A stretch of 28,294 bases of DNA from IMG/VR virus record IMGVR_UViG_3300022225_000838, positions 1-28,294 of that record; one strand, given 5' to 3'. A program made the position numbers and the translations under genes. Below, piece after piece: positions 15,612 to 28,005 of this stretch. This DNA comes from a virus. How positions within the stretch are numbered: the stretch's first letter is position 1; each line of letters begins with the position of its first letter. A model generated the notes under the pieces. The model had not been told where the DNA came from and ran no database searches. It worked only from the letters and a program-made list of their open reading frames with translations.

Positions 15612-18600
15612 ATGGCGTATGTACCCGTTGCACAACGAAACAATGAATCTATAAGCCCTCCTACTACCATAAATGACACTGGAACGGAGGGTGGTTTTCA
15701 ATATACTCCCGTTGCGGTTCGCAGAGAGCAGGCACCTCTTATTGAGAGACAAACACGCTTAAAGAAAATCAGACGACTTGCATTTGAGGCACAGGCAGCA
15801 CAAGCCAATGTTGAGGCATCAAAGGGAGTATTTCTTACTTTTGCCGAGGAGTTGGGTGTGGTAACACCAATGGAGATTAAACAACCCAAGGTTACGTTCG
15901 GGCAGTTCGTGGCCGGTTTTGGTGAGGTTGCAAAAGACATTGCTCAAACACTTGCAAAGGAAGCCGGGTCCATTGGCCAAACGATTCTAACCGGAGACCC
16001 GGAATCAGAGATTGTCGCAGAGACAACATTTCAAAAGAATCTTGCAAAAACTATTTACGGTACTGACAAGCCCTTCTCTTTGAAGAGCACCGCAAAAGAG
16101 ATTGGAGGAGAGTTCCTTGTTACGGCAGGAGCCAAAGAAGGAGCAGCAGAGGACTTCGCACTTCCTGTGGGACTCTTTTTCATGGGACTGGACCTCTTTG
16201 TTGGTGGTGGCACAAAAGCAGGCCAGGCAAGAATAAAGTCTGCTGCTACTGACCTTTCAAAGTTCAGCGGAGACGTGAGTCGTACACAGGCCCGATTGAG
16301 TGAAGTCATTACTGGCACGGATGCTGAACTTCGTCAACTAGCACAGACAATTGATGGGATGCGAGACCCAAACAAAATTGAGAAACTTATTACTGATATT
16401 GGAAAAAAGAAGCCCGGAGATGTTCAAGCCATGCAAGCAACAAGAAAGGGTGTTCCGATTTCAAAAGAACTAGAACCCCTAGCAGTAGAAGCAAGGAAAG
16501 TATTTAATGAAAAAACAGGTATCTTTAATCTTGACGAACTTATAGGTAAAAATATAAAAGGGAAAACGGCTGATGTAGTTAGAATGACACCTGATGAGTA
16601 TTTAGCAAGAATCCCCGAAGTAGAACCAACTGGGAGTAGTTTGGCGTTTATGAGAAAGCAATTATCTGAAGGAAAAAAACTTAGTGCTCCTTCATTAGAT
16701 TTTTCTGGAAAAACCCTATCGCAAGAGGGACGAAATAGAGCTATCCTTGCAAAAGAACTAGGAATTAAAGAAATCCCCGTTGTTATTGTAAGAGACTCCA
16801 AATCCCAACTCACCGACTTCTTTAATCAAGCAAAAATCACTGATTTCGCAGCACCGGCAAGAAGATTAAGGGTAAGACGTATTACAGAGGAAGAATCGCT
16901 TGAGGGCATTGCTCGGGAACAACTCTCTCTTGAGGCCGAACGTAAGGCACTTGACGATATCACAAACACATTGGATTCCGTTGCAGATGACCTTATTACC
17001 ACAGAGGAGTTGGACCTGTTGAGATTGGAACTCGGATTCACACAGCAAGCACTTGAAGCCAACCCCGCCCGCCAATTGACTCGTTATACGAATAAAAGAA
17101 CTGGCGAATTACCGGAGGTTACTGGCCGTGGGCCATCAGAGTTTGCTCGGCGTGGTGATGATATCGTTACGGAACTTGGATTTAGAGATTCAGAAGAGGC
17201 CCGGGCGGCATTTGGAAAATATCTTATAGAGAAAAGAAGTTTTAATGAATTAAAGGGAAGTGTCCGTCAATCAACAGATATTTTCCAAAGACAAAAACGA
17301 GTAGCATCAGAACTTGTTGAGGGTCGTGAGCGAATGACCCGGGCCCTACAACGTGAGATTAAACAGGCCGTATCAGAGGCGATTGGAGAAGCCCGCAAAA
17401 TCGCACGAGTTGAGACACGTGCAAAAGTTAAGGGGTTTAAGGAAGGACGACTGGCCGGATTTCAAGAGGCCCGTATGCGTATACGAACTGCAAAGAAAGC
17501 AGAGCGTCAACGATTCATGGCATTTCAAAAGCGTATTAAGGAGCGTTCTCGCAAGGTTAAAGCCGCACAGGAGTTCTTCAACCTTACTGATGTTGAAATG
17601 GCCAAAATTACCAGAAGGCGTGATGTGCGTCTAATGGACAAAAAACAATTTGATAACTTTATGCAGGAGGTGGCCGGAAAAGCACAGGCGTTTGCAGAGC
17701 GGAGCAAGGCGGTTGCTCAACTCAAAGGAACCATTTTTGACAAGGAACTCCGAAAAACAGAGAACATTCGTAAGGCCATGAAGTTCCCGACAGTGGAAAA
17801 TATGTCTATTAGTCAACTTACTGAATTTGATAATCTTCTTTCTCAATATAAACGAGGAGATGAGTTTTTGGGTCTCCGAAAATTAGAGACCGTTGACCGC
17901 ACTGACCTCAAGGGAATTAAAACCTTGCGTGAAGCACGTGAACGTCTTGCAAAAGAGGCGGGAGTATCCGTGAAAGAACTTGAGAGCATCAAGGTTGTAT
18001 CAACAGACCGGCTACGTTTTGACACTTCACTTGCAGAGAAAAACCCATTTTATCGCAACATGGTTGAGGGGTATTCAAAATCAATGTTGGAAGGTGAGGC
18101 CCGATTCTTTGAGATACGGAGAACTGCCAACACTCTTATAAAAGAAGCACGTAAGTCCCGGAAGCGTGGACTTGTTGAGCGTGCCGTTCCAACCGATGAA
18201 CAGATTTTCAAATACATTGAGGCACCAAGTGAAGGACCTGTTATAACAAGTGGACTAGCAGGTAAGGCAAGGAAGTTTGATACTGCGGATGAGTTTGTGG
18301 AGAGTCAAAGAAAAGTTTTTCATCAGACATCTCCAGAAGTTGCGGCAAAAATTGAAAAAGAAGGATTTCGGGTGGATATTCAAGGAAGTGGTGCGAGTGA
18401 TACCCTACCTTTAGGAGTAAACACAAAAGCAACAACAAAAGAATTGCTAATAAAAGGGAGAGGTTCACAAGTAGAAGCATTTTTACCTGCTGACGCAAAA
18501 GTTAAAAGTTTTGCCACAAGAAACGAAGCAGAACGATTTTTCAGGAATGAATCAGATGTTTTTAGAAAAGCCGATGATAATGTAAATATAATAGATAGGG

Positions 18601-20474
18601 ATATAGCAAAGAGGGCTAATGAAATACTAGACAGGAAAGGCAGAACTCGCACTCAAGTATTAGCTGAAAATAAGGAAGCACAAAGAATTTTAGATGAGGG
18701 TCGCCCAAAAATGTTAGAACAAGCCAAAATAGCAAAAGAAGAAGCAACCAGAATAATGCGTGAACAAGGATTTGATGCTATAGAAATAAAAAGAGATATT
18801 GGCGGGTTTGGCGAAACTGATAATTTAATTGTTCTTGACCCAAAACTTCTCAAAACCAAATCCCAACTAACCGACATCTTTAATCAAGTAAAAGAAACAA
18901 GAATTGAAACAAAAACCCAACTTGCAAAACAGATGACCAAAGAAGAGTTGGATGCTTCCAATTTCATCATTGGAGAATATGCTCGTATGAGGGACTACCT
19001 TGTACAGTTTCAGGTCCTCAAAAAATATCGTAGCGATTACATCACCCACATTCGCAGAGGGTTTCTTGAAGAGTGGCGAGCCGGTGGTCCGGCAAAGGGA
19101 CTTCTCAATGGTTTCAAAAGCGTGTTCAAACAATATCAACTTGATGAGGCCGTTTTCAATATTCTTGACTCTGATACAGGACAGATACTTCCTCTTGAAA
19201 AGTTCTTCCAGTTTTCAATGAGACGTACTGGCCAAATTGCACCAACTCAAAACGTGGCCCGTGCATTTTTGACTTACGCAAAGACATTTGAAAAGAAGGC
19301 AGCATTGGACTCTGTGGTGCCTAAATTGGATATCTACGCACACTCTCTTACTCCTGCACGTACAACACCTCGTGGTCTTGAGTTTGACCGTTCTCTCAAG
19401 CGTTTTGTGAACGAGTGGGTAAACACTAAAAAAGGACGTGTTTCCCGAGGTCTCTTTTCAAAGCAAGGAGACGAACTTGATATTGGTCTCCGGTTCGTGA
19501 AGATGTTTACTTTATTACATGACCTTGGATTGAACATTCCAGTATCTATTGCTGCACAGTTTGGTGAACAGGCAACCACCTTCACCATGCTCGGTACAAA
19601 AAGATATGCTCGGGGAATTGCACGGTTGAACTCTAAAAGAGGAAAGAAAATTGTGAGAGAAAATGAGGCATTTCTTGGCCGAACACCGTGGGATGCGTTC
19701 CATGATGCAAGCAACAACATTGCGGACCGTCTCTCAATTGGTTTGATGGGGCTCTTCAAAGATGCCACAGTACGGGCCAATAAAATCTTTATGCTCGGTT
19801 CAATGAGTGATGCAGAATGGAAAGCAGCACAAATTTCATCTGAACGACTCTCCGGGCTCCGAACAGAGATGGGAAGATACCGTGTTGTTGAGGATGCTTC
19901 GTCAATTGTTGGTGCTACCACAGAAGGACAGATACTCACACAATATAAAAAATGGGCTATTCCAATTGCTCGTACCACATTTGTCAATGCGGGCCGGCTT
20001 GCGAAGATGCTTGCAAAGAGGGACCCGAATGTATTAAAGTCAAGAGAGTTTCAGGAATTATTCCGGTCAACAGTGGTAATAAGTTCTTTGGTTCTTGTGG
20101 CAAGTGCAGTTATCGGAGAAGATGAGGATGACAAGTCTTTCACAGCACAACTCATTTCAAAAGCACGCAGAGATGCTCTCTCTACAATCGGGGCATTGGA
20201 CCCCACAGCGTTTGCAAATGCTCCTCGTGTAATTACATTTCTTGAGGACCTTGCAACGGCAATGAAGCAGATTGCATTTCTTGAAGAATACAAAACCAAA
20301 GAAGGCCTCGTGGGTGTTCAGAAGTTAAAGAGAACTATCACCCCCGTTGCAGTTAAACAATTTATTCCTTCCGAGGAAAAGAAAAAGGTCGGACAAAAGG
20401 GAACTGGTATAAGCGTTCCCTCATTACCAAGTTTACCAAGTTTGCCGAAATTGCCTGCACTACCAAAACTATGA
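15612..20474 (+). CDS. Giant internal/ejection protein with ParB-like and ART-like modules
   Basis: 1620 aa, the largest protein here, and the natural candidate for a virion-internal protein injected with DNA. It has an N-terminal helical region with a hydrophobic stretch (LPVGLFFMGLDLFVGGG). A module at about 277-405 resembles ParB-like domains (VVRMTPDEYLARIP, EGRNRA at 372-377, then LGIKEIPVVIV). A long basic coiled region spans about 430-870. An ADP-ribosyltransferase-like module at about 880-1093 has VFHQTSPEVAAKIEKEGF (H904), GFDAIEI and LIVLDPKLLKTK. The helical C-terminal region ends with a membrane-like segment (STVVISSLVLVASAVIG) and LPx repeats. Both modules are A/T-rich, use AGA for Arg and end in the same motif (SQLTD-x-FNQ). 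It resembles phage polyvalent proteins. The domain names are inferences. Confidence 0.75.
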   Translation: MAYVPVAQRNNESISPPTTINDTGTEGGFQYTPVAVRREQAPLIERQTRLKKIRRLAFEAQAAQANVEASKGVFLTFAEELGVVTPMEIKQPKVTFGQFVAGFGEVAKDIAQTLAKEAGSIGQTILTGDPESEIVAETTFQKNLAKTIYGTDKPFSLKSTAKEIGGEFLVTAGAKEGAAEDFALPVGLFFMGLDLFVGGGTKAGQARIKSAATDLSKFSGDVSRTQARLSEVITGTDAELRQLAQTIDGMRDPNKIEKLITDIGKKKPGDVQAMQATRKGVPISKELEPLAVEARKVFNEKTGIFNLDELIGKNIKGKTADVVRMTPDEYLARIPEVEPTGSSLAFMRKQLSEGKKLSAPSLDFSGKTLSQEGRNRAILAKELGIKEIPVVIVRDSKSQLTDFFNQAKITDFAAPARRLRVRRITEEESLEGIAREQLSLEAERKALDDITNTLDSVADDLITTEELDLLRLELGFTQQALEANPARQLTRYTNKRTGELPEVTGRGPSEFARRGDDIVTELGFRDSEEARAAFGKYLIEKRSFNELKGSVRQSTDIFQRQKRVASELVEGRERMTRALQREIKQAVSEAIGEARKIARVETRAKVKGFKEGRLAGFQEARMRIRTAKKAERQRFMAFQKRIKERSRKVKAAQEFFNLTDVEMAKITRRRDVRLMDKKQFDNFMQEVAGKAQAFAERSKAVAQLKGTIFDKELRKTENIRKAMKFPTVENMSISQLTEFDNLLSQYKRGDEFLGLRKLETVDRTDLKGIKTLREARERLAKEAGVSVKELESIKVVSTDRLRFDTSLAEKNPFYRNMVEGYSKSMLEGEARFFEIRRTANTLIKEARKSRKRGLVERAVPTDEQIFKYIEAPSEGPVITSGLAGKARKFDTADEFVESQRKVFHQTSPEVAAKIEKEGFRVDIQGSGASDTLPLGVNTKATTKELLIKGRGSQVEAFLPADAKVKSFATRNEAERFFRNESDVFRKADDNVNIIDRDIAKRANEILDRKGRTRTQVLAENKEAQRILDEGRPKMLEQAKIAKEEATRIMREQGFDAIEIKRDIGGFGETDNLIVLDPKLLKTKSQLTDIFNQVKETRIETKTQLAKQMTKEELDASNFIIGEYARMRDYLVQFQVLKKYRSDYITHIRRGFLEEWRAGGPAKGLLNGFKSVFKQYQLDEAVFNILDSDTGQILPLEKFFQFSMRRTGQIAPTQNVARAFLTYAKTFEKKAALDSVVPKLDIYAHSLTPARTTPRGLEFDRSLKRFVNEWVNTKKGRVSRGLFSKQGDELDIGLRFVKMFTLLHDLGLNIPVSIAAQFGEQATTFTMLGTKRYARGIARLNSKRGKKIVRENEAFLGRTPWDAFHDASNNIADRLSIGLMGLFKDATVRANKIFMLGSMSDAEWKAAQISSERLSGLRTEMGRYRVVEDASSIVGATTEGQILTQYKKWAIPIARTTFVNAGRLAKMLAKRDPNVLKSREFQELFRSTVVISSLVLVASAVIGEDEDDKSFTAQLISKARRDALSTIGALDPTAFANAPRVITFLEDLATAMKQIAFLEEYKTKEGLVGVQKLKRTITPVAVKQFIPSEEKKKVGQKGTGISVPSLPSLPSLPKLPALPKL
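16798..16834 (+). repeat. Module-end direct repeat, copy 1
   Basis: A 37-bp stretch that differs at 3 positions from the copy at 18856-18892. It encodes KSQLTDFFNQAK at the end of the ParB-like module. Both copies are in the same reading frame and 2058 bp apart (686 codons). Confidence 0.85.
18856..18892 (+). repeat. Module-end direct repeat, copy 2
   Basis: The second copy (34/37 identical) encodes KSQLTDIFNQVK at the end of the ADP-ribosyltransferase-like module. Recombination between the copies would delete the intervening part of the giant protein in frame. Confidence 0.85.
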
Positions 20475-21486: not shown

Positions 21487-21864
21487 TTGTCAATCCCCTT
21501 CTTCTTCCTACTTCCTACGACAACAGAGATATATACCGCCCCAGTGAAGCCACAATCAACGCAGGAGGCGTTTGATGCGGAACAGGTCATCTTGGCCTAT
21601 TCAGAGCAATATCGGGTCAATTTTGACGAATTATGGGCCGTTATGATGTGCGAGTCTGGGGCCTCTACAACCGCTCGTGGAAGAGCCGGTGAAGTTGGTA
21701 TATTTCAATATATGCCCGCAACTTTCAAACAGTTTTCTCAAGAGTTTGGCCAAGCACTTGATATAGAAAACCCACGCCATCAAGTAGAATTGACAGCGTG
21801 GGCTTTTTCATTGGACTATAAATATCACTGGACTTGTTGGCGGAATATGTATCAAGTATACTAG
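21487..21864 (+). CDS. Lytic transglycosylase (SLT-like) with signal peptide
   Basis: 125 aa from a TTG at 21487. It carries the lysozyme-like SLT pattern: the catalytic Glu in MMCESG (E56), then AGEVGIFQYMPATF (the G-x-x-Q-x-x-P loop), and a helical end. It cuts the glycan strands of the wall. The N-terminus is hydrophobic (IPFFFLL). Reading upstream in the same frame to an ATT at 21460 adds RTTIYIFLL and makes a normal secretion signal with a positive n-region, so the true start is probably non-ATG and upstream. It sits in the lysis cassette before the operon terminator. With the M15 peptidase it gives two complementary wall cuts. Confidence 0.78.
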   Translation: MSIPFFFLLPTTTEIYTAPVKPQSTQEAFDAEQVILAYSEQYRVNFDELWAVMMCESGASTTARGRAGEVGIFQYMPATFKQFSQEFGQALDIENPRHQVELTAWAFSLDYKYHWTCWRNMYQVY

Positions 21865-21871
21865 AGGTGCA

Positions 21872-21895
21872 AAGTTAGATTGCAAAATCCAACTT
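21872..21895 (+). other. 3'-end hairpin with GCAA tetraloop
   Basis: AAGTT-a-GATT (GCAA) AATC-c-AACTT forms nine base pairs with one mismatch and a GNRA loop. It lies 8 nt past the last lysis gene and 12 nt before the terminator, so it would be part of the mRNA 3' end, where it could protect against exonucleases. Confidence 0.6.
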
Positions 21896-21907
21896 GGCAG
21901 TTTTAGC

Positions 21908-21949
21908 AAAAAGACCTCGGAGGGACGGAATCCCTTTAGAGGCCTTTTT
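21908..21949 (+). terminator. Bidirectional intrinsic terminator of the lysis operon
   Basis: An outer stem of A-run, GACCTC against GAGGCC, T-run (about 21910-21918 with 21939-21947, one A-C mismatch) encloses GGGA/TCCC. Runs of A on the left and T on the right make it work in both directions. The rightward late operon and the leftward gene at 21978-22088 converge on it. Confidence 0.85.
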
Positions 21950-21977
21950 GTTTGTTTAGAAGGGTGGTACAATTAGA

Positions 21978-22088
21978 TTACTCACTCGCACCGCCTCCTT
22001 CATCTTCACCTGCTTCCGGAGTTGTTTCTTCTCCGTCTTTTTTTTCTGCTCCTTCTTCCGGAGCAGCAGTTGTGTCATCAAAAGACAT
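21978..22088 (-). CDS. Small acidic Gly/Glu-rich protein
   Basis: 36 aa on the minus strand, the only leftward gene. It starts MSFDDTTAAPEEGAEKK and ends GEDEGGGASE: strongly acidic and probably disordered. I recall many short MSFDD- or MSFDE-type acidic Gly-rich peptides in Patescibacteria genomes, which is part of the host guess. An extended -10 promoter lies about 70 bp upstream, a 7-bp hairpin (22098-22116) sits just before the start, and a bidirectional terminator follows. So the transcription unit looks complete despite its size. Function unknown. Confidence 0.6.
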   Translation of the reverse strand: MSFDDTTAAPEEGAEKKDGEETTPEAGEDEGGGASE

Positions 22089-22154
22089 AAGCATTAAATG
22101 CACATTTTTTGTGCATTGAAATTAAAACATTGTAAAAAAGTCCGACCTTCTTAC

Positions 22155-22162
22155 ATTATACC
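22155..22162 (-). promoter_or_regulatory. Leftward extended -10 promoter
   Basis: On the minus strand the sequence is TGGTATAATGTAAG: a perfect TATAAT with TGn in front. No good -35 is seen, as expected for an extended -10. It points at the small acidic gene and resembles the promoters at 25751 and 26723. Confidence 0.6.
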
Positions 22163-22173
22163 ATCTTCAAATG

Positions 22174-22196
22174 TTATCCACAGGACACTTGTGGAT
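22174..22196. promoter_or_regulatory. Inverted DnaA-box pair
   Basis: TTATCCACA (22174-22182) is an exact consensus DnaA box. After 7 nt comes TGTGGAT (22190-22196) as its mirror, the second box being TGTGGATTT. They form a 7-bp inverted repeat (ATCCACA ... TGTGGAT), next to A/T-rich sequence and between divergent promoters. It could be a replication-start element or a DnaA-controlled operator. Confidence 0.6.
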
Positions 22197-22219
22197 TTTT
22201 TTATTTGACATTCTATAAT
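22190..22219 (+). promoter_or_regulatory. Rightward promoter candidate (weak -35, TATAAT)
   Basis: TATAAT at 22214-22219 has only a poor -35 (TGTGGA, 18-bp spacing) that overlaps the second DnaA-box arm. A TTGACA at 22205-22210 is too close to this -10. It would start transcription near 22226, just upstream of the strong hairpin and the structured RNA region. Confidence 0.4.
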
Positions 22220-22260
22220 TAAGACATGATGATGGCAGTATACAATTTCATATTGCGTAT

Positions 22261-22314
22261 AAAAAAACCCTCGCAACCTTTGCGACTGCCGTTGTCAGTT
22301 GTGGGGGTTTTTTT
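22261..22314 (+). terminator. Strong hairpin, bidirectional terminator or attenuator
   Basis: A 17-bp stem runs from AAAAAAACCC at 22261 to GGGTTTTTTT at 22314, with inner pairs TCGCAAC to GTTGTGG (two G-T pairs). The same inner sequence can instead fold as TCGCA(ACCTT)TGCGA at 22271-22285 plus CTG(CCGTTGT)CAG, making a three-way junction on a 10-bp A/T-G/C base. It can therefore stop transcription in either direction, or act as a switchable attenuator for the RNA downstream. Confidence 0.7.
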
Positions 22315-22327
22315 GTTTGTAATTTTT

Positions 22328-22660
22328 TGACGGGGGGAGTTAGATAACGGTCCGGCATCGGGGTGCTTAATTCTCATCCCGCCGGTGCAAAGTAAATCCA
22401 TCGCCGTTATCTCTCCTCGTCAGAGAATTACTCTGAACCACTGGGAGTAAGGGTTGGCGAATCCACAAGCCCCTCCCGGATGCCAATTAAATTGTGGAAG
22501 GGTGGATACCTCATTGTACTGGGCAATACACCCCTCGCTCACATCGTTAAATGCAAAGTCGCTCTTGCGTTGTGAGGAGAAGGTCTTGGGGGCAACAGAT
22601 ACCAAGATACCGTTGAGCGTTGCAGCGAGCCGAGAGAAAACGGAGCAACTCGTTGTGCAT
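22328..22660 (+). ncRNA. Large structured RNA candidate (~330 nt)
   Basis: No plausible gene fills this stretch, but helices cover nearly all of it: 22328-22350 with 22404-22422 (about 19 bp with two 2-nt bulges); 22352-22364 with 22376-22385; 22453-22464 with 22478-22487, competing with 22441-22447/22473-22479; 22500-22504 with 22529-22533 enclosing an ATTG/CAAT hairpin; 22534-22543 with 22571-22579; 22582-22589 with 22602-22611; and 22619-22623 with 22645-22649. ATCCAC (22461-22466) can also pair with GTGGAT (22502-22507) as a pseudoknot. The G-T pairs favour the plus strand. It is GC-richer than nearby intergenic DNA. It does not match what I remember of tmRNA, RNase P or SRP RNA. Confidence 0.65.
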
Positions 22661-22724
22661 AACACACGTATTATAAACGGCTAGGGTGTTTCCTATTGCC
22701 TGAACAATAATTTATCTTATATAT

Positions 22725-23033
22725 ATGAAAAACTTAAACGGTGAACAGTTACAACTTGGTGGATACATGGACGTTATAAAAAAAAGAGGAGAGGAAAGAG
22801 AAAACAAAGCAAACAACGAGAGAGCAGATATAGTCCACAAGTTTGAAAAAATAATCAACGAGTCCAGAGAAAAATCTGACCGAAAGCCGTACACATCAAA
22901 ATGGATAGCGATAAAAATGTCGCACCTTGATTTGTGGACACTCAAGTCCTTTCTTCAAGATTGCGAGCGAGCCAATAGTTTTTCTGCATATTGGCACTGG
23001 GCACTTAATCCACAGAACTGCAAAAATACTTGA
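22725..23033 (+). CDS. Hypothetical protein, 102 aa
   Basis: The N-terminal half is a charged helix (MKNLNGEQLQLGGYMDVIKK, then NKANNERADIVHKFEKIINE). The C-terminal half is compact and Trp-rich (TSKWIAIKMSHLDLWTLKSF, ANSFSAYWHWALNP). I recall small proteins with a 'K-x-SHL ... W-x-L-x-P' ending in Patescibacteria genomes and plasmids, but know no function. The ATG follows TTATATAT without a Shine-Dalgarno. It is the first gene after the structured RNA, so the two may be co-transcribed. The next promoter overlaps its stop codon. Confidence 0.7.
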   Translation: MKNLNGEQLQLGGYMDVIKKRGEERENKANNERADIVHKFEKIINESREKSDRKPYTSKWIAIKMSHLDLWTLKSFLQDCERANSFSAYWHWALNPQNCKNT

Positions 23034-23229: not shown

Positions 23230-23254
23230 CTTATATTTGACTTACAATTAAAAT
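23226..23254 (+). promoter_or_regulatory. Promoter TTGACT - 17 bp - TAAAAT
   Basis: TTGACT (23226-23231) overlaps the stop of the HTH gene. After 17 bp comes TAAAAT (23249-23254), one mismatch from consensus. It repeats the layout of the 23030 promoter. Transcription would start near 23262, giving the next gene a leader of about 160 nt. Confidence 0.65.
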
Positions 23255-23261
23255 TAAAATA

Positions 23262-23423
23262 CTGGAGTACTCGTGGCGAGCGATACTCTGGGCACCGGCC
23301 TTCGGGGGCAACGATAAGATTCTCAACACATAAACATTTTAGATTCACAGAGTCTTTAATGTAAGTCCTCCGGCTCAAGGCCAGTGCAGGTCGTACTTTT
23401 ACAAGTTTAATATCGTTAATTCT
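23262..23423 (+). promoter_or_regulatory. Long structured leader RNA
   Basis: About 160 nt without a gene lie between a promoter and the zinc-ribbon gene. Visible stems are 23265-23273 with 23277-23288 (GAGTA plus CTCG, 9 bp, a CGA bulge), a C(TTCG)G tetraloop near 23300, ACATT ... AATGT (23334-23338 with 23358-23362) and ACTT(TTAC)AAGT (23395-23406). This could be a riboswitch-like or protein-binding leader, or a separate small RNA. I do not recognise a known class. Confidence 0.5.
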
Positions 23424-23624
23424 ATGGCAGTAAAACATTGTAGTAAGTGTAACTATTACTCTTCATTGAACGATTCAAACTTCTGTTCAATGTGTGGTGG
23501 CCAGATGGGAGAAGGAAAACGTGATTGTGAAAAATGTGGCAAAAAGATTTTCCTTTCAGACCCATTCTGTCAACACTGTGGAGTTGCACAAAAAAAAGCA
23601 CATGTTCCCCATTTTAGAAAGTAA
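23424..23624 (+). CDS. Double zinc-ribbon protein
   Basis: 66 aa with four CxxC pairs: CSKC, CSMC, CEKC and CQHC, forming two consecutive zinc ribbons, with a basic tail (KKAHVPHFRK). Such proteins often bind nucleic acids or act as adaptors. The start ATG at 23424 ends a long structured leader, and a switch-like RNA element follows the stop. The regulated setting suggests a regulatory role; no function is proven. Confidence 0.8.
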   Translation: MAVKHCSKCNYYSSLNDSNFCSMCGGQMGEGKRDCEKCGKKIFLSDPFCQHCGVAQKKAHVPHFRK

Positions 23625-26740: not shown

Positions 26741-27229
26741 ATGCTCTACAAATCCACCAGAATCGGCAAAAACCTTGAACCATTCGTGCTCTATAAGTTC
26801 AGAACGATGGTCAAAGATGCGGACAAGATTGGTCCGCCCTCCACCGCCGATGATGACCCCCGTATTACAACTATCGGAAAGTTCCTACGCAAAACTAAAC
26901 TTGATGAGATACCTCAACTTTGGAATGTCCTCAAGGGAGACATGGCTATTGTGGGTCCTCGGCCAGAAGTTCCGGGTGTTGTTGATTTGATGACGGATGA
27001 GGAGAAGGAGGTCATTTTTTCTGTTAAACCCGGAATCACAGACCTTGCAACACTCTCAAACATGGACGAGGGAGCAGTTCTTGAGGGAGAGTTCAACCCG
27101 CACCAAGCATATCTTGAGAAGATTTGGCCCGAGAAAAAGAGGTTGCAGATTTTATATGTTCAAACCAAGTCATTTTGGGGTGATGTTAAAATAATATTAT
27201 GGACTATCAAAGGACTGCTTTGGAAGTAA
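26741..27229 (+). CDS. Sugar (phosphoglycosyl) transferase, catalytic domain only
   Basis: 162 aa of the bacterial sugar transferase family (PglC/WcaJ type), which moves a sugar-phosphate onto undecaprenyl phosphate to begin a glycan. The conserved blocks are present: RIGKNLEPFVLYKFRTM, DDDPRITTIGKFLRKT, the catalytic Asp-Glu pair in LDEIPQLWNVLKGDM (D55-E56) and IVGPRPEVPG. The usual N-terminal membrane helix of 30-40 residues is absent, and a stop codon lies in frame at 26708 with nothing helix-like between. Either it is a soluble variant, or the gene lost its start, perhaps by phage integration. It overlaps the transketolase gene by 31 nt. Confidence 0.85.
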   Translation: MLYKSTRIGKNLEPFVLYKFRTMVKDADKIGPPSTADDDPRITTIGKFLRKTKLDEIPQLWNVLKGDMAIVGPRPEVPGVVDLMTDEEKEVIFSVKPGITDLATLSNMDEGAVLEGEFNPHQAYLEKIWPEKKRLQILYVQTKSFWGDVKIILWTIKGLLWK

Positions 27230-28005
27230 GAAGGAAGGTCCTTGAGATGATTCACAAGGCCCAGACTTCACATATAGGTTCCAACTTGTCGTGCATTGAT
27301 TTGCTCGCTGTTCTTCACGATAAGGTTCTTCGCTTTGAGGGACCAAAAGACGGAGGTTATGACTATCACGACAAACTCATTTACTCAAAAGGATGGGTTG
27401 CTGCAACAGCGTATGCGTTCTTGGCTCGGCACAAAATTATCCCAGAAAAAGACTTGGAAACTTATTGTGCTGATGACAGTAAATACATAGGTCTTGTTGA
27501 GCCAACGGTAAAAGGAATTATTGCTGCGGGTGGGGCAATGGGCCATGGATTACCAATGGGCGTTGGGATGGCCATGTCCTACAAGAAGAACGATTCAGAT
27601 GACCGCAAGGTATATGTTTTGATGAGCGATGGAGAAATGCAGTGTGGAACTACGTGGGAATCTGCTCTTTTGGGTGCTCACCACAACCTTGATAATTTGA
27701 TGGTGATAGTAGATTACAATAAACTTCAAGCAATGGGAAGGACCAACGAGGTCTTGAATCTTGATTCACTTCCGAGAAAATGGAACGCATTTAATTGGGA
27801 AGTTCGTCAAGTGGATGGACACAATCCCCTAGAAATTGAAAGAGCACTCACCTCTCCCCCACTCAAAGGGGGTGCCCCAATTGCCGTTATAGCCCATACT
27901 GTGAAGGGGAGGGGAGTGTCGTTCATGGAGGACAAATTGGAGTATCATTACAAAAATATCAGTGATGAAGAGTACGAAAAAGCACTTGAGGAATTAAGCA
28001 CATAA
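27199..28005 (+). CDS. Transketolase, N-terminal subunit
   Basis: 268 aa, the size of a split N-terminal subunit. It binds thiamine diphosphate: SHIGSNLSCIDLLAVLH, the loop GGAMGHGLPMGVGMA, and MSDGEMQCGTTWESALLGAH with VDYN (the GDG ... N motif, here SDG). Late motifs are VDGHNPLEIE and HTVKGRGVSFME. With the C-terminal subunit next door it would move two-carbon units between sugar phosphates (pentose phosphate pathway or sugar-precursor synthesis). The start lies inside the end of the sugar transferase gene, so the two are translationally linked. Its codon choice does not stand out from the phage genes. Confidence 0.92.
   Translation: MDYQRTALEVRRKVLEMIHKAQTSHIGSNLSCIDLLAVLHDKVLRFEGPKDGGYDYHDKLIYSKGWVAATAYAFLARHKIIPEKDLETYCADDSKYIGLVEPTVKGIIAAGGAMGHGLPMGVGMAMSYKKNDSDDRKVYVLMSDGEMQCGTTWESALLGAHHNLDNLMVIVDYNKLQAMGRTNEVLNLDSLPRKWNAFNWEVRQVDGHNPLEIERALTSPPLKGGAPIAVIAHTVKGRGVSFMEDKLEYHYKNISDEEYEKALEELST

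Follow-up and report, generated by a model that had tools for sequence, protein, structure and literature searches.

The window, that is the whole stretch of 28,294 bases that was analysed, is an IMG/VR virus record with a gene order typical of a tailed phage: genes for a terminase, a portal-like, a capsid-like and a 1620-aa protein, an M15 peptidase and an SLT lysozyme are followed by an intergenic region and by early-type genes. The 1620-aa protein (15612-20474) has no Pfam match and may be a large protein of the virion or one that is ejected. The RNA described here lies between the lysozyme gene and the next gene, which encodes 102 aa (Table 1). No credible forward gene was found in this interval (21864-22725), in agreement with a preliminary description of this DNA, which had noted about 330 nt without a credible gene upstream of the 102-aa gene. 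ARAGORN detected neither a tRNA nor a tmRNA in the window. The structured RNA that had been proposed at 22328-22660 is confirmed by the results below, with a revised 3' end.

Table 1. Features in and around the RNA region of the window
Feature	Position	Strand	Description
SLT lysozyme gene	ends 21864		last gene before the RNA region
Candidate promoters	22205..22246	+	TTGACA-17-GATGAT (10/12) and TTAAGA-16-TACAAT (9/12); consensus scan
Terminator-like hairpin	22275..22309	+	14-pair stem, 7-nt loop, T-run
5' accessory hairpin	22321..22429	+	long closing helix of ~18-19 bp; MFE fold
Pseudoknot hairpin	22441..22479	+	helix C 22441-22447/22473-22479; clamp GGC 22456-22458/GCC 22469-22471
Linker	22480-22491	+	AUGCCAAUUAAA, near-invariant; spanned by helix B
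Pseudoknot helix B	22462..22498	+	loop UCCACAA 22462-22468 with UUGUGGA 22492-22498
Multibranched 3' domain	22519..22703	+	closed by helix D, 22519-22534 with 22684-22703; constrained MFE fold
Helix E hairpin	22538..22576	+	strands CUCACAUCG/CGUUGUGAG
Hairpin G	22619..22649	+	conserved loop AGAGAAAA at 22633-22640
102-aa gene	starts 22725		next gene after the RNA region

Homologues were identified in at least four further, divergent IMG/VR phages (loci L016, L032, L121 and L228), plus one truncated possible case (L049). The twin contig G001 is identical to the window over the RNA and therefore adds no information. G002 is a divergent syntenic phage (63% identity to the window in the terminase, 58% in the lysozyme) that carries a comparable RNA in the same slot (L016 503-800), and motifs common to the RNAs of the window and G002 were used to scan IMG/VR. 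A scan with CYGGAWGCCAHTTAAANT returned 28 stretches; among these, besides the twin contig and G002, the rest of the element was present in L032 and possibly in L049, and the other stretches were rejected as they had no correctly spaced helix B of 7 bp. No part of the 5' half was included in CYGGAWGCCAHTTAAANT, so that L032, with the helices it shows, confirms the structure independently. Two further IMG/VR scans yielded L121 and then L228, and the members listed here are minimum counts. A core model (R1; 71 positions, built without L228) scores L228 with 40.2 bits (E 5.6e-10), a score to be read in the light of L228 having been picked by part of the same motif. L049 reaches 27.9 bits, is truncated and does not form helix B; it is kept only as possible.

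Other candidates were discarded. Matches of R1 at 15-28 bits in L189, L051, L026, L037 and others concern loci chosen by motif, in which helix B is not at the right spacing. In 395 Bacteroidota genomes, R1 gave three matches at 25-26 bits, about what chance yields for that amount of sequence, and none was RNA-like on inspection. The four matches of the motif GAGAGAAAAC...ACGGCTAG in IMG/VR other than the twin contig were chance hits in repetitive, protein-coding-like sequence. A nucleotide search of the INPHARED phages with four members found no match, nor did a single-protein search with the neighbouring exonuclease, and an alignment of the SLT lysozyme recovered only the two phages already known. 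As no further member turned up in 925 kb searched, mostly terminase-family relatives, the RNA is sporadic.

The conserved heart of the RNA is a 58-nt H-type pseudoknot (22441-22498, plus strand). What had first been listed as a possible pseudoknot is thus real, both of its helices being complete and covarying in all five members. Helix C comprises 7-9 bp and is fully paired in each of the five homologues, with up to four pair types per position; its pairs were read from the ends inward, not from a sequence alignment, and every pair was tabulated. The 5' strands are CUGGGAG in the window, CUGGUGGGG in L016, CUGGUUAGA in L032, CUGACAG in L121 and CUGAGUGAA in L228. The loop has the same form across the five members: GAA (UAA in L016), then the first strand of helix B. 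This helix has 7 bp in all five, namely UCCACAA:UUGUGGA, GCAAUAC:GUAUUGC, CUUACAA:UUGUAAG, CCCACAA:UUGUGGG and GUGAUAA:UUAUCAC (window, L016, L032, L121 and L228, respectively). In a sequence-only MAFFT alignment (A9), five of the seven helix B pairs show changes on both sides, and 98% of the alignment cells of clamp and helix B pair, against at most 56% in all slid controls. The covariation score of 0.600, compared with 0.177 in shuffles, was reached by none of 500 shuffles; the covariation rests on five full sequences. Helix C, the GGC:GCC clamp, helix B and the linker AUGCCAAUUAAA, which together define the family, are found in all five members.

Pair 2 of helix C is U-G in all five members and pair 3 is G-U in three of them; on the complementary strand, these would turn into A-C or C-A mismatches. 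Since the G-U pairs are kept in the homologues, the RNA strand must be the plus strand, which bears out the rightward reading that had been deduced from G-T pairs in the window. No reading frame is conserved across the homologues: the longest open stretches differ in frame, and no homologous translation was found beyond a trivial 9-residue antisense match. Strong covariation is hence combined with the absence of a conserved frame, and the stretch encodes a structured RNA, not a protein. Judged by these substitution patterns, selection acts at the RNA level, on the plus strand, on the pseudoknot and a hairpin loop (see below) in several phages.

The folding energies can be compared with this picture. 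The minimum free energy (MFE) of 22328-22660 on the plus strand is -121.1 kcal/mol (z -3.2), and the longer stretch 22320-22720 reaches z -3.7, with none of 100 dinucleotide shuffles as good in either case. For the minus strand, z is -0.8, with 20 of 100 shuffles as good. L016 (405-800) has a z of -3.6; values are weak in L121 (-0.3) and L032 (-1.5), the fold model being one without pseudoknots.

Downstream of the pseudoknot, the whole 3' domain is predicted to be multibranched with a long closing helix in the window, and the predicted fold of L228 contains a similar domain, also with a long closing helix; comparative support for this domain is weaker than for the core. Because the helix closing this second half is predicted to pair up to 22703, we place the 3' end of the RNA there; the end at 22660 given before would cut helix D. 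Helix E covaries between the window, L016 (CUUAUAUCG/CGAUAUAAG) and L121 (CUUGUAACG/CGUUACAAG) in the sequence-only alignment, and L228's own fold includes a comparable hairpin. The preliminary description had called for a search for homologues and for covarying pairs; covariation is now seen in helices B, C and E. Hairpin G presents an identical 8-nt loop, AGAGAAAA, in four of the five members (window, L016, L032 and L228), closed by differing stems (CCG/CGG, GCAG/CUGC, CAG/CUG and CUCUG/CAGAG); this hairpin was not found in L121. At the other end, a helix of ~18-19 bp does exist as described before, but it closes only the 5' hairpin (~22321-22429) and not the whole RNA. An analogous hairpin occurs in L016 only; as it is absent from L121, L032 and L228, it does not belong to the conserved family, and only the window phage and its nearest relative have the first 95 nt.

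The carrier phages are mosaic relatives (for L228, the whole record was compared). The L228 phage has portal (35%), capsid and exonuclease in common with the window and the terminase (54%) with L032, and for the L121 phage the links are limited to a segment of the lysozyme and a weak match of epimerase type with the window, and to a remote portal with L032. The RNA sits at the boundary between lysis-type and early genes in the window and G002, at a similar site in L121, and at a divergent junction in L228. In L032 it lies alone between terminase and portal, antisense to both, with no downstream gene on its own strand. We found no adjacent gene common to all carriers; given this and the differing positions, there is no obvious target in cis, and the lack of a common adjacent protein makes a host partner more likely than one encoded by the phage. 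The record ends of G002 hold alternative versions of the same slot, with 86 bases of the right flank at 97% identity: L016 1-936 contains the large RNA, L017 18879-19825 a short hairpin RNA and an 80-aa gene. These two versions make the RNA look accessory and exchangeable, and their simplest source is two strains merged by assembly.

The evidence for transcription signals differs between carriers. The promoter candidate previously noted upstream in the window corresponds to the sites in Table 1, but it is weak on its own, as the consensus scan found three promoter-like sites where 1.9 are expected by chance. In L032, a promoter with a perfect 12/12 score (TTGACA-17-TATAAT), its -10 box preceded by TG, lies ~107 nt upstream of the core, and a terminator-like hairpin follows ~360 nt after the point where the core begins. 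In L228, the -10 of an 11/12 promoter (TTGACA-17-TATACT) ends 6 nt before the pseudoknot, which would put the predicted transcription start at about the first base of the core; an A/T-rich terminator-like hairpin ~350 nt further on was seen by eye, the scan having missed it. In the window, L016, L121 and L032 (by inspection or scan), the core comes after a terminator-like hairpin; in L228 it does not. The one in the window, with its U-tract, is the element earlier described as a switchable hairpin. An inverted-repeat/terminator element of the order A-B-A'-B' was observed at 22230-22315 of the window, in L016 (300-410) and in L017 (19195-19270); A lies close to the putative promoter, and the terminator is made up of B and B'. 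The two versions in G002 have the element in different sequence, which suggests a switch or a pseudoknotted terminator. A small, very acidic minus-strand ORF, MSFDDTTAAPEEGAEKKDGEETTPEAGEDEGGGASE, lies between two terminator-like hairpins (window ~21980-22090, L016 50-170, L017 18930-19060) and is kept in both G002 versions.

With Rfam 15 at gathering score, there was no match in the window, in keeping with the initial statement that the RNA is unclassified and its fold not recognised. At relaxed E-values over the RNA in the window, L016, L032 and L049, only chance-level matches appeared, in the window to a plant miRNA model and to leader/sRNA models. As no relative was found in Rfam 15 or in the open-licence PMC literature, this is a new, previously uncatalogued RNA family. 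For its kind, a large phage non-coding RNA of unknown function, GOLLD and ROOL are precedents, but it belongs to neither. To our knowledge, the number of known families of large structured RNAs in phages is small.

On balance, we think that the locus forms a stand-alone gene whose product is an accessory, structured non-coding RNA acting in trans and carried by tailed phages of a mosaic group, and that the gene spans 22441-22703 of the window with a lineage-specific 5' extension back to ~22321. Phages infecting uncultured bacteria probably use this RNA as a tool that has so far gone unrecognised. The RNA would be transcribed independently from a sigma-70-type promoter and would be stable because of its fold. 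In trans, the pseudoknot and the AGAGAAAA loop would be offered to a conserved protein or ribonucleoprotein of the host and thereby occupy or redirect it for host takeover or counter-defence, and phages that are otherwise similar would gain or lose the cassette.

We regard a cis-acting leader, be it a 5'-UTR or a put-like antiterminator or riboswitch for downstream genes at the late-to-early junction, as rather unlikely. In the window, L016 and L121, terminator-like hairpins come just before the RNA and genes on its strand lie after it, as expected for a leader, and H-type pseudoknots with conserved linkers such as the present one are typical of ligand-binding RNAs. The downstream genes differ, however: the 102-aa protein of the window and the 93-aa protein of L121 have no BLASTP similarity, and L016 has yet another gene. 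Moreover, these terminator-like hairpins come before the core rather than after it. What speaks most strongly against a cis leader is L032, where the RNA stands alone in antisense orientation, has nothing downstream to regulate and is followed by a terminator-like hairpin. The put RNA of phage HK022, EAR and JUMPstart are cis antiterminator RNAs and, like the RNA described here, structured phage or operon RNAs near promoters and terminators, but the present core is longer and pseudoknotted, and no same-strand gene follows it in L032.

A special form of action in trans would be that of an RNA decoy against an RNA-dependent host defence, mimicking an antitoxin RNA, a crRNA repeat or an AbiF RNA in the manner of pseudo-ToxI or Racr. 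Phage-encoded RNA decoys do exist: pseudo-ToxI of phage PhiTE is a pseudoknot decoy (PMC3475682), and RNA anti-CRISPRs are encoded by phages (PMC10651486). Like ToxI and pseudo-ToxI (PMC3475682), the present RNA is a pseudoknot RNA carried by a phage, and an accessory, interchangeable locus would suit counter-defence. ToxI consists of tandem 36-nt units, though, whereas here one 58-nt pseudoknot is joined to a ~200-nt multibranched domain; the core is single-copy, neither direct nor tandem repeats were found in the RNA of three members, Rfam contains no matching antitoxin or repeat family, and ~300 nt is far larger than such mimics. We therefore judge a decoy unlikely.

There is little to be said for an RNA-only or RNA-scaffold assembly comparable to the ROOL and GOLLD cages, which we consider very improbable. 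ROOL and GOLLD are large, elaborate phage-encoded RNAs whose function is still open, and the likeness consists in a large non-coding phage RNA without known protein partner, with a multibranched domain and a pseudoknot, as described for ROOL (PMC12286853). The present RNA is much shorter (~260-370 nt), has another conserved core, matches neither the sequences nor the Rfam covariance models of GOLLD and ROOL, and adjoins no tRNA island in the window, whereas GOLLD and ROOL often, though not in every case, lie close to such islands; in L016, one isolated tRNA-Thr was found by ARAGORN ~0.9 kb downstream. An element acting as DNA (replication origin, pac or att site, or ssDNA hairpin) is disfavoured and hardly to be expected: the intergenic location at a module boundary and a DnaA-box-like TTATCCACA at ~22174 would fit, but strand-specific G-U pairs are kept by covariation, cumulative GC skew has no turning point in G002 or the window, and the positions in L032 and L228 are others.

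Most remote of all is the guide RNA of an RNA-guided nuclease or a TIGR-Tas array. Long structured RNAs do accompany IscB and TnpB, and the present RNA resembles HEARO/omega RNA (IscB) and TIGR arrays in being a long structured RNA of mobile elements or phages. TIGR-Tas arrays have alternating 8-12-nt repeats with ~9-nt spacers and an adjacent Nop-domain gene, and occur in phages and Patescibacteria (PMC12045711). Here, a search of six records, some possibly incomplete, revealed neither the zinc-binding domain of the TnpB/Cas12f type (PF07282) nor a Nop/Tas domain, and there is no repeat array. The previous statement that no IscB or TnpB gene is present is borne out in these six records for the PF07282 domain; IscB is covered only through its HEARO RNA, for which Rfam gave no match.

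To return to the stand-alone trans-acting RNA that we prefer, Patescibacterial hosts are plausible yet unproven. In L049 (350-4027), a GroEL-like fragment and terminase-like genes (families assigned by reading) can be read through only with TGA reassigned, which is consistent with TGA encoding glycine, as in the SR1/Gracilibacteria code. The sugar-biosynthesis genes of G001 are of a type reported for groundwater Patescibacteria phages. Against such hosts stands a capsid relative on a 9-kb contig in a Bacteroidetes MAG, possibly mis-binned, which is the only relative in a named genome. It is conceivable, though we propose it tentatively, that the pseudoknot and the AGAGAAAA loop attach to some conserved machine in ultra-small hosts of the Patescibacteria type and reprogram it, as a trans-acting weapon or takeover factor that has no phage protein partner and works by an undescribed mechanism. 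If the RNA acts in trans, it would offer an entry to how phages handle hosts not yet culturable. The RNA is compact, its conserved core is clear, its covariation is defined and its residues in helix B, the linker and the AGAGAAAA loop lend themselves to testing; the motif and the 71-position core model permit a direct search of metagenomes and metatranscriptomes.

Some further observations concern the same phages. In G001 (L001 1342-9462), a cluster of aminotransferase, amidotransferase, epimerase and acetyltransferase genes (by reading) resembles surface-sugar synthesis, and the window (26741-28005) and G002 have sugar transferase and transketolase-like genes, the sugar transferase having been tested and the rest assigned by sequence reading. 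Downstream of a sigma-70-region-4-like gene, we noted a second candidate for a structured intergenic RNA (window 23236-23425, L016 2048-2245), for which there is no Rfam match. Window and G002 are 61% identical here (E 2e-8), with z values of -3.1 (window) and -5.1 (L016), and the candidate combines a hairpin with CUGG ends and a long stem with a conserved UUCACRGAGUC.
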